NCBI GenBank assembly: GCA_016192145.1
Contig: JACPUT010000005.1
Span: forward strand, 62,001 to 126,000
From: Acidobacteriota bacterium
GTDB taxonomy: Bacteria > Acidobacteriota > Holophagae > Holophagales > Holophagaceae
Reading direction: 5' to 3'
Length of the DNA: 64,000 nt
Positions 2,606 to 5,034 of this stretch are shown here, one piece after another. The notes under the pieces are model-generated. The model was not told the DNA's origin. It saw only the letters and a list, made by a program, of their open reading frames with translations, and made no database searches. The translations under genes and the position numbers were made by a program. Every line of letters starts with the position of its first letter. Within the stretch, counting starts at the first letter, position 1.

Positions 2606-2844
2606 AAGAAGAACGCGAAGGGCGCGAATGAAAGCGCGAAGAGCGCGAAGGGACCTCGACCCACTCGTCAGTCATCCCCTGTGGAAGCGGCGCCCGGCGG
2701 GCCTTCATGGGCCCGCTCAGCGCCGCTCCCCCAGGAAAGTCCAGCCAAGCTGGACCTTGGGCCGCAGGCCCGGATGACATTGCCCTTCAGCCTGAACAGA
2801 CATTCGCGCCCTTCGCGCTTTTCTTCGCGCTATTCGCGTTCCAA
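2606..2844. repeat. Nested palindromic element, copy 1
   Basis: The 310-bp gap 2566-2875 holds no gene. It contains a structured element: a left arm of GCGAA words (about 2606-2652), a GC-rich core palindrome (about 2673-2736) and an inverted right arm at 2803-2844. The right arm is identical over 42 bp to 4666-4707. In the core, a GCGGCGC/GGCGGGCC half pairs with GGCCCGC/GCGCCGC around a short TTCAT loop. Nothing resembling a transposase is nearby. Confidence 0.8.
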
Positions 2845-2875
2845 ATCCGTACCGCCCGACCAATTCCGCGAACGA

Positions 2876-3289
2876 TCAGTCCCACTCCCGGTATCCGATC
2901 ACCACCAGGATGCACGCCCCGTTGGCGATGACCTCCAGGCCCGCCGCCTCGGCTTCCCGCACCGCGGCCTGGCTCTCCGCGCCGGGCTGCATCCAAATGG
3001 ACTTCACGCCGGCGGCGATGGCCTCCTTCACCACCTGCTCCGTGATCTTCGGCGGCGTGATCACGCTGATGCCCGTCACCCGCTTGGGCAGGGCCGAAAG
3101 CGAGGGATAGGCCTTCAGTCCCTCGATCTCGTCCGCCCGGGGATTGATGGGGAACACCTCCATGCCGTGCTGTTGGTAGCAGCGCAGCACCTTGTTGCCG
3201 TACTTGTCGCGGTCGCTGCTAGCCCCCACCACGGCCCAGGGCCCGGCGGCGAGGAAGGCTTCGACCTTGGCTTGGATGGAGGTGGACAT
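2876..3289 (-). CDS. CoA-binding domain protein (YccU-like)
   Basis: A 137-residue stand-alone Rossmann-fold CoA-binding domain. It shows WAVVGASSDRDKYGNKV near the N-terminus, then VFPINPRADEIEGLKAYPSL, SVITPPK and the closing IANGACILVV. These match the small YccU/CoA_binding_2 family, whose members bind CoA-type nucleotides but whose cellular role is poorly defined. Start ATG 3287-3289 gives the family's usual length. It is transcribed leftward, toward the FabD-like gene, with the nested palindrome in between, and diverges from the kinase-like gene at 3335, only 45 bp away. Confidence 0.85.
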   Translation of the reverse strand: MSTSIQAKVEAFLAAGPWAVVGASSDRDKYGNKVLRCYQQHGMEVFPINPRADEIEGLKAYPSLSALPKRVTGISVITPPKITEQVVKEAIAAGVKSIWMQPGAESQAAVREAEAAGLEVIANGACILVVIGYREWD

Positions 3290-3334
3290 GCGGGGCTCCC
3301 GAAGGCCCCAGGATCCCATAAGCTGAAGAGGTCC

Positions 3335-4342
3335 ATGCACGTCTCCTCCACCGCCCAGCCCTGGCACCAGGTGCCCATCCATCTCCGGCGCTCCTACTGG
3401 GAGCTGGAGGAAGGTGAGCGCCACGCCCTCCGCGGTGCGATGGAACGGGAGGCTGAAGCGCTGGCCAACGATCTGGATGCCACCGAGGCCGCCTACGCCG
3501 CCCTCCCCGACACCCTCCGCGGCCGCCTCGTGAACGCCGACCTCATGGCCACCCTCCTGCCCACCCTCCGGGCCAACCCCACCCAGGGCTACGAGGCCCT
3601 CGAGGATCCCGGGGGCCACGCCGTGGTGCACCTCAACACCCTCGGCAAGCGCCTGCGGGACCGCGCCCTGCAGCTGGCGGGCTCCACCCCGGTGCTCATC
3701 CTCATGGGCGGCCAGGCCTCGGGCAAAACCACCGGCGCCTGGGCCCTGGGCCGCGCCTTCGGCGCCGTGTTCGATGCCCCCCACACGGATCCCGAGACCC
3801 TGGCCTTCCTCGTGCGACGCATCCGCGACGACTGGCCCTGGGCCCAGATCCACCTGGCCTACGCGGATCGCAGCCCCGAGAGCAGCCTCTACGCCATGCT
3901 CGATCGCTCCGAGCGGGAGGGCCGCTACGTCCCCCTGGATCGCATGGCCCGCACCCACGCCCGGGCCCCCCACACCTTCCTGGGCCTGGCCTCCCTCCAG
4001 GACGAAGGTCTCTGCCTCTACCACGTCCGCACCCGCTGGAACGCCACCCCCGTCGTCACCGAGGGGGAAGAAGCCGTGACCGGTGTCGCCGGCAGGCAAA
4101 AACCCGCCGAAAGCGCCGTTGCCTGGCGTCTCCAAACGGCGTACCTTGCTCATCTAAGGACAATCCCGCATGACCCATCAGCCAGGCACCCGCGAGACGT
4201 TCTCGCTGGCCTCAACCGAACCCTTGAGCCATGGCGACGGGCCGAAGCCCACCATCTCCTCCAGCGACTTTCTGAGAATGTGGCAGGAGGAAGTCCCCAA
4301 GGTCGTCCAGGCCCACAAGGATCACCACCGCCAAGTGCGTGA
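3335..4342 (+). CDS. Zeta-toxin-like P-loop kinase
   Basis: A 335-residue protein with an N-terminal helical region (residues 1-115) and a Walker A motif GGQASGKT at about 125-132 following the hydrophobic strand PVLILM. After the P-loop comes a region with AYADRSPESSLYAMLDRSEREGRYVPLDRMARTH, written here as separate parts of the lid-type segment seen in zeta toxin/kinase proteins. Such proteins phosphorylate UDP-sugars or other small substrates; the substrate here is unknown. ATG 3335-3337 follows GAAGAGG with good spacing. The last ~58 codons (from 4170) have poor GC3 while a different frame there has good GC3, so the true C-terminus may be shorter or frameshifted. No antitoxin of the epsilon type is recognisable. 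Confidence 0.6.
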   Translation: MHVSSTAQPWHQVPIHLRRSYWELEEGERHALRGAMEREAEALANDLDATEAAYAALPDTLRGRLVNADLMATLLPTLRANPTQGYEALEDPGGHAVVHLNTLGKRLRDRALQLAGSTPVLILMGGQASGKTTGAWALGRAFGAVFDAPHTDPETLAFLVRRIRDDWPWAQIHLAYADRSPESSLYAMLDRSEREGRYVPLDRMARTHARAPHTFLGLASLQDEGLCLYHVRTRWNATPVVTEGEEAVTGVAGRQKPAESAVAWRLQTAYLAHLRTIPHDPSARHPRDVLAGLNRTLEPWRRAEAHHLLQRLSENVAGGSPQGRPGPQGSPPPSA

Positions 4343-4361
4343 AGCCCTCGGCCTCGACTGA
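4170..4361 (+). CDS. Small 63-residue protein overlapping the kinase 3' end
   Basis: ATG 4170-4172 is preceded by AAGGA (4156-4160) and an in-frame TAA at 4155-4157. The frame encodes a hydrophilic, largely helical peptide ending in WQEEVPKVVQAHKDHHRQVR plus a short tail. Its third codon positions are almost all G or C, as in real genes of this window, whereas the overlapping kinase frame has AT-rich third positions. I do not recognise the family. It could be a translationally coupled partner of the kinase, or the genuine tail of the kinase after a frameshift. Confidence 0.5.
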   Translation: MTHQPGTRETFSLASTEPLSHGDGPKPTISSSDFLRMWQEEVPKVVQAHKDHHRQVREALGLD

Positions 4362-4382
4362 AGGTTTAGAGACCTCCCCTGA

Positions 4383-4410
4383 AATCAGGCCACCTCCGGG
4401 TGGCCTGATT
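4383..4410. terminator. Terminator-like hairpin after the 63-residue frame
   Basis: A perfect 12-bp stem (4383-4394 with 4399-4410) closes on a TCCG loop 22 bp after the stop codon. No T-run follows on either strand, so intrinsic termination is likely but not certain. Confidence 0.5.
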
Positions 4411-4445
4411 CGTGGTGGGGAAGCACCCGTGGACAATCGCCTTCC

Positions 4446-4707
4446 GAACGCGAAAAGCGCGAAGAAAAGCGCGAGGGGCGCGAATGGAGCCCGGTGCGGC
4501 CTGGGCTCTTCCCATGGCAAGCAAGACCTGAACTCAGAAGCCGCAGAAGAGAGCATCACCCAACCACCGGCCATCCCCTGTGAGGGCGGCGCAGGGTGGG
4601 CCCTCATAGGCCCGCCCAGCGCCGCCCTCACAGGGGATGGCCCTGCCCCGCAGCTCGAAGGAGCCTTCGCGCCCTTCGCGCTTTTCTTCGCGCTATTCGC
4701 GTTCCAA
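4446..4707. repeat. Nested palindromic element, copy 2
   Basis: The 673-bp gap 4362-5034 has no convincing gene. It contains the second nested palindrome. Outer arms are 4446-4484 and 4666-4707, inverted with about three mismatches over 39-40 bp. The core has a perfect 22-bp inverted repeat (4571-4592 with 4619-4640), extended inward by GGGTGGGCC/GGCCCGCCC to a loop of CTCATA. Core and right arm match copy 1 at 2606-2844. Confidence 0.85.
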
Positions 4708-4935
4708 CTCACCCCCGGTAGTGCGCCTCCAGGAACCCCAACCGATGCCGTTCGTGGGCCCCGTCATGTACTCCGCATGCTCACCGGGCTGGGGACGGCC
4801 TGAAGGTCGCAGGGGCATGGCTCACCTCCCCGCCATTGCGGCGCGGGCCGTCGCGGAAGCCAAGGCCCAAACGCCGGAGATGACGAAGTGTCAGCGCCGG
4901 CGCCAGGGTTTGAATCGAGCCATGGAAAAAGCAAA

Positions 4936-5009
4936 CCAGAGATGAACAGAGATGAACGGAGATGAGATGCTCGTTGCTTTTATCTCCGTTCATCTCTGTT
5001 CATCTCTGG
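4936..5009. repeat. ATGAACAG-type inverted repeat between convergent genes
   Basis: A perfect 28-bp inverted repeat: 4936-4963 pairs with 4982-5009 across an 18-nt loop. Each arm is itself built from reiterated GAGATGAAC words. A T-rich stretch follows on the + strand (5011-5026) and an A-rich one precedes the left arm, so it could end transcription from both sides. The same word family recurs at 23672-23760. Confidence 0.8.
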
Positions 5010-5034
5010 CTCGTTTTTGTTTTTCTCCCCGCCC

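Follow-up and report, generated by a model that had tools for sequence, protein, structure and literature searches.

The two nested palindromes found at 2606-2844 and 4446-4707 of the window (the whole 64,000-nucleotide stretch of DNA that was analysed) are probably copies of a dispersed, modular, nested and non-autonomous family of MITE-like DNA elements of the Holophagaceae, moved in trans by a putative transposase. The copies are named E1 (copy 1) and E2 (copy 2). The main lines of evidence are multicopy dispersal, a covarying structure, outer repeats and target duplications in Geothrix, a site that is empty or filled depending on the species, and an intergenic bias. In the coverage of the literature achieved, which was partial, no description of the family was found, and the family is previously unnamed.

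Each copy is about 240-260 bp long and consists of word arms that enclose a GC-rich core (Table 1). Both nested palindromes had been recognized in a sequence-only reading and are present at the places given there; direct reading also confirmed a 42-bp identity between the right arms (2803-2844 and 4666-4707). Folded as single-stranded DNA, neither core was equalled by any of its 200 dinucleotide shuffles. The E1 core is not a simple hairpin: it is made of a closing stem (P0) and three hairpins, HP1, HP2 and HP3. E2 is devoid of HP1 and HP2, and its closing stem therefore continues into HP3 to form one long, near-perfect hairpin. Neither a transposase nor a plausible gene was found inside E1 or E2, in agreement with the first inspection. 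The core regions of the two copies are only about 74% alike, so that a recent duplication did not give rise to the pair.

Table 1. Features of E1 and E2 in the window.
Feature	Position	Strand	Evidence
E1 left word arm, GCGAA words	2611..2649	+	39 nt; inverted match to 2803-2841, 87% complementary (inverted-repeat comparison); belongs to the arm family, whose pattern occurs 27 times in the genome
E1 linker joining core and arm (GACGAGTGGGTCGAGGTCCC)	2650..2669	-	similar linker adjoins cores with other arm words
E1 core: closing stem and three hairpins	2670..2779	-	covariance model R1, 79 bits; ssDNA fold -46.5 kcal/mol, z -8.2; double changes in 32/35 family pairs
E1 HP3, long GC-rich hairpin	2678..2735	-	fold; double changes in 12/13 family pairs (helices 4 and 5)
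E1 HP2 (AAGGTCCAGC / GCTGGACTTT)	2736..2758	-	fold; double changes in 10/10 family pairs of the helix
E1 HP1, stem GGGCC/GGCCC, TGCG loop	2759..2771	-	fold of 2670-2779, minus strand
E1 right word arm	2803..2841	-	inverted match to left arm
E2 left word arm	4446..4484	+	39 nt; inverted match to 4666-4704, 95% complementary
E2 reduced core: closing stem joined to HP3, without HP1 and HP2	4569..4642	.	34-nt inverted repeat (4569-4602 / 4609-4642), 94%, loop 6 nt; ssDNA fold -48.1 kcal/mol, z -11.4; no R1 match
E2 right word arm	4666..4704	-	inverted match to left arm

The genes around the pair encode an acyl transferase (PF00698), a CoA-binding protein (CoA_binding_2, PF13380), a kinase with a weak match to Zeta_toxin (PF06414), a 63-aa ORF and CarB. 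Profile searches thus agree with the previous statement that the pair flanks CoA-binding, zeta-like kinase and 63-residue genes, with the reservation that the Zeta_toxin match is weak. The 63-aa ORF has no Pfam match, and its use as bait in named genomes turned up no counterpart; by tblastn, it is found in Geothrix at about 50% identity. This conserved ORF (4170-4361) and that of the kinase (3335-4342) overlap in different frames, and one of the two ends is probably mis-called or frameshifted.

No evidence was found for the earlier hint of a gene block bracketed by the two copies. E1 and E2 do flank a 1.6-kb block, and the gene order differs from that of Geothrix, where the kinase gene and the 63-aa ORF are on the opposite side of the CoA-binding gene. 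Taken together, these facts might evoke a composite element whose ends are E1 and E2 and which moves the CoA-binding/kinase block, or else a single segmental duplication. However, inversion between E1 and E2 does not account for the altered gene order, the two core regions are only about 74% alike, relatives carry the same genes reordered and without the pair, and many copies elsewhere are single. A composite transposon was rejected on the grounds of gene order and single copies, and we consider either version of this explanation extremely unlikely; as the origin of the pair, it is refuted by the copies found elsewhere.

Additional observations were made in the neighborhood (handles beginning with G, C and L denote genomes, contigs and loci). 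When window positions 2876-4361 were compared with L107, L108 and L112-L115, the kinase gene and the 63-aa ORF were found to have the same orientation as in genus g4 but to lie on the opposite side of the CoA-binding gene. A further word palindrome (CCAGAGATGAACAGAGATGAACGGAGAT) with 37-nt arms that are 92% complementary lies behind carB, at 4927-5018, and resembles one found at G060:C9:28128 (L117). In other species, the gap between the CoA-binding gene and carB contains CGCGAAA words (L107 of G066 and L110 of G034) or CAGATTACGC-like words (L109 of G001), or is nearly empty (L108 of G004). In G001, two ORFs that by eye resemble a nucleotidyltransferase/HEPN pair separate the CoA-binding and acyl transferase genes (L109, 1036-1713).

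The window belongs to a 3.8-Mb genome in 19 contigs (G000), and a BLAST search of that genome with E2 yielded 73 matches at E ≤ 10. About 40 reach 1e-4 or better, and some matches are a single place counted on both strands. Most matches involve the arm and are found as scattered inverted pairs with very different interior lengths. A degenerate arm pattern, CGCGAANRGCGCGAANAAAAGCGCGAA, was then searched allowing up to 2 mismatches, with the reversed pattern as control. Matches were detected in the window's genome (27), G060 (7), G066 (3), G099 (2) and G007 (1), and in none of the remaining family genomes, while the reversed control gave none in any genome. Extension of the search to 297 genomes of the phylum returned the same five genomes only, all of them Holophagaceae. 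Plasmids, phages and viral contigs gave no match to the queries used. The arm is therefore multicopy here and patchy in Geothrix.

The core is also dispersed. The core that E1 has in common with related copies is about 110 nt long and comprises P0, an HP1 whose loop reads C-TNCG-G, HP2 and the long HP3. In the RNAalifold structure of 11 such cores, 19 of 35 pairs showed double-sided change. The covariance model that was built detected 12 copies in the window's genome. Of 77 genomes of the family, 24 contain copies, for example G031 (24), G060 (20), G062 (19) and G066 (17); many sister species had none. With a stricter cut-off, core matches among the 297 phylum genomes were confined to the window's genus and genus g4, which we take to be Geothrix, and 285 of the 297 had no core. 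An exact core pattern searched in 84,980 named genomes was found in Geothrix only (G. fuzhouensis SG12, Geothrix sp. SG200 and G. paludis SG195). In an alignment of 73 distinct rows, 96.8% of cells were paired and 32 of the 35 pairs showed double changes, bearing in mind that rows fitted to the covariance model lean towards the model. None of 500 shuffles reached any of the measures, and slid controls paired at 41-49% only. Dispersal and covariation are thus at odds, on every point, with a pair of copies that arose by one duplication, without covariation and without copies in relatives.

Most of HP3 is gone in two copies of the window's genome (C6:256999 and C13:6077). As E2 is the one without HP1 and HP2, hairpin modules are thus lost independently of each other.

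In G031, a contig end is no more than about 160 bases away from many of the cores (C7, C12, C22, C23, C38, C43, C51 and C65), suggesting that the elements probably break short-read assemblies.

Covariation of this strength is unusual for the interior of a MITE and could reflect an RNA function. The core might be a functional structured RNA such as a 3'-UTR element, a sRNA or a regulatory domain, with arms that merely frame it. The HP1 loop, mostly C-UNCG-G, adds to the appeal of this possibility, as does an excess of G-U over A-C cells (59 to 31) that amounts to a weak bias in the wobble test; however, G-U makes up only 2.5% of cells and E1 folds about as well on one strand as on the other. 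Whole hairpins are lost in some copies, the distribution among sister species is patchy, and the copies have no neighboring gene in common. Furthermore, no Rfam match was obtained: at the gathering cut-off of Rfam 15, the window gave two tRNAs only and a sister copy gave nothing credible. In the gaps between tandem genes, 11 cores are in sense and 22 in antisense orientation. Altogether, these observations make a structured RNA an unlikely explanation. Either an RNA function or any DNA-level process that needs or regenerates palindromes can maintain covariation, and we favor the latter: it would be as DNA, single-stranded or cruciform, that the fold acts, and not as RNA.

Location of the copies, determined with a home-made codon-usage gene finder, points in the same direction. 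All 70 copies are intergenic: 20 in convergent, 41 in tandem and 8 in divergent gaps, with 1 at an edge. Element-free gaps at the same loci are distributed 17/61/32 (convergent/tandem/divergent), and the difference between convergent and divergent gaps has a p value of 0.0023, an optimistic figure given that copies are kin by descent and some loci overlap. The bias, taken with the core orientation in tandem gaps, is consistent with elements that insert and are then selected against where a promoter gap is hit, but not with a motif of mRNA.

In each arm a short word is repeated 2-4 times, and the opposite arm carries the array in inverted form. When the flanks of 39 cores were examined, inverted arms of differing words were found: GCGAAG, ACCAAGG and GGGATGAAG in the window's genome, ACGAAGG in G031, G062 and G084, GCGAAT in G071, and CGCAGA-type words in G063. 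The linker that adjoins the core (about GTGGGTCGAGCCCC) is similar in copies with different words. The median score of the match between left and right flanks was 32 within a copy, compared with 19 between copies and 15 in shuffled sequences; in a few copies, the two flanks matched little or not at all. A tentative speculation, to which we give rather limited credence, is that word arms are exchangeable specificity cassettes: copies may change their word as a unit, and the family would in this manner track changing binding or target sequences. The change may occur if a copy captures new arms, or if the core inserts into word palindromes that already exist. To our knowledge, such cassette-type change is an undescribed mode of repeat-element evolution.

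Further outer layers were seen in the window's genome, either GGCATGAAC..CCTTTTG ahead of ACCAAGG arms or a GATGCCCGCGAAGG motif beside other copies (loci L206, L208 and L211; L035, L037, L039, L041, L209 and L210).

Signs of mobility come from Geothrix, where many copies are enclosed by an outer inverted repeat, CCYGNTTATCGGCNNNNCTCAGCC, about 24 bp long. At ≤ 2 mismatches, this repeat occurs 47 times in G062, 43 in G031, 19 in G084 and 16 in G063, and once each in G000, G004, G021, G034 and G027. The 8-mers that flank the copy match at 7 or 8 positions in 9 of 20 Geothrix copies, against 0.26% of mismatched-combination controls, revealing 8-bp target duplications. Two more outer-repeat copies of G062, located inside another word repeat, were seen by eye to be flanked by TCCTGTTA or TAACAGGA. 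E1, E2 and the other copies of the window's genome have no outer repeat (a single match exists in that genome), and target duplications at their arm ends are not significant; their mobility is thus inferred from homology.

Comparison of orthologous sites provided additional evidence. An element with GCGAA arms lies directly behind a stop codon in G060 and G099, with a repeat of at most 2-3 bp at the site. The same site is empty in G066, whose flanks are 93-94% identical, and in several other species, and is occupied by a different word palindrome in G064 and G085. G066 could have lost the element secondarily; however, empty sites are widespread, and gain within the clade is therefore the simpler reading.

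The presence of different palindromes in one intergenic slot of different species, together with the stability of the hairpins and their position behind gene ends, might also be expected if palindromes were kept by selection as bidirectional terminators or as topological (gyrase/cruciform) sites. We deem this very unlikely: a terminator/promoter scan detected nothing within E1 or E2, including any terminator-like T tract, sister species have nothing in most of the orthologous slots, and a role of this kind needs neither a complex core nor target duplications.

Transposition by a RAYT (Y1) transposase, as in REP/BIME-type elements, is another scenario that a palindromic, multicopy and intergenic element, mostly located behind genes, brings to mind. 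Y1 transposition makes no target duplications, yet Geothrix copies have them. The elements span 95-350 bp instead of 20-40 bp, and a search for PF01797 that was positive in 5 of 14 control genomes gave 0 matches in the window's genome. The suggestion that the pair might be REP-like, at least in the strict RAYT sense, is accordingly not supported, and we regard this scenario as highly improbable.

The MITE-like option raised in the sequence-only reading is supported, as the family is dispersed and multicopy and its Geothrix members have terminal inverted repeats, 8-bp target duplications and an empty/filled site. A DDE-type transposase acting in trans would recognize the ends of the element and move it into intergenic DNA. 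Copies that land in genes or in promoter gaps would be lost, and survivors would be found mostly behind gene ends; hairpins would later be lost module by module, as E2 may illustrate. Both the transposase and its chemistry are putative, and the copies of the window would have used the same route. In a limited search of a set of outer-repeat loci, neither an autonomous element nor a transposase whose ends match came to light.

Like MITEs, the elements are shorter than 500 bp and have no coding capacity, with Geothrix copies mostly 270-350 bp long. Terminal inverted repeats are represented by the outer repeat in Geothrix, and only by word arms as inverted ends in the copies of the window. Target duplications are those of Geothrix, and are not significant in the window's genome. 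Hence, the MITE assignment is made at the family level, on size, outer repeats, duplications, position and fold (MITE features as described in PMC10969869 and PMC3049150), and the copies of the window show no significant duplication.

Among known prokaryotic MITEs, QMITE2 of Coxiella has 7-9 bp duplications, inverted repeats of 23-29 bp and a core of 113-145 bp (PMC10969869). Geothrix copies are similar to such MITEs in size, outer-repeat length, 8-bp duplications, intergenic position behind genes and a base-paired interior. Differences are the GC-rich, covarying three-hairpin core, the exchangeable word arms, the fact that no parent IS was found and, in the copies of the window, the lack of outer repeat and duplication. 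BOX elements of Streptococcus pneumoniae are also modular composites, intergenic, with predicted stem-loops and mutual insertion (PMC3049150). The likeness is in design only: BOX is a tandem A-B-C array, while inverted arms are nested around a core here, and a sequence relation is not expected. REP/BIME and GTAG/CGTC palindromes share with our family a palindromic, multicopy nature and a location mostly behind coding regions; those units are, however, 20-40 bp long and those of the GTAG type are tied to RAYT genes (PMC3733652), whereas the window's genome has no Y1 transposase. Geobacter multicopy nucleotide sequences comprise many families of palindromic or direct repeats in intergenic regions (PMC2700814, PMC2996986); they are likened here by description only.

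What began as an unexplained pair of palindromes is now a defined family, for which a working covariance model, terminal repeats, target duplications and a test by empty sites are available. Its nested, swappable design illustrates how small bacterial repeats may be built from parts, and the family shows how one intergenic gap holds different palindromes in different species. In practical terms, genomes of Geothrix and its relatives can be harder to assemble, to screen for RNA structures and to annotate with gene callers because of such copies.
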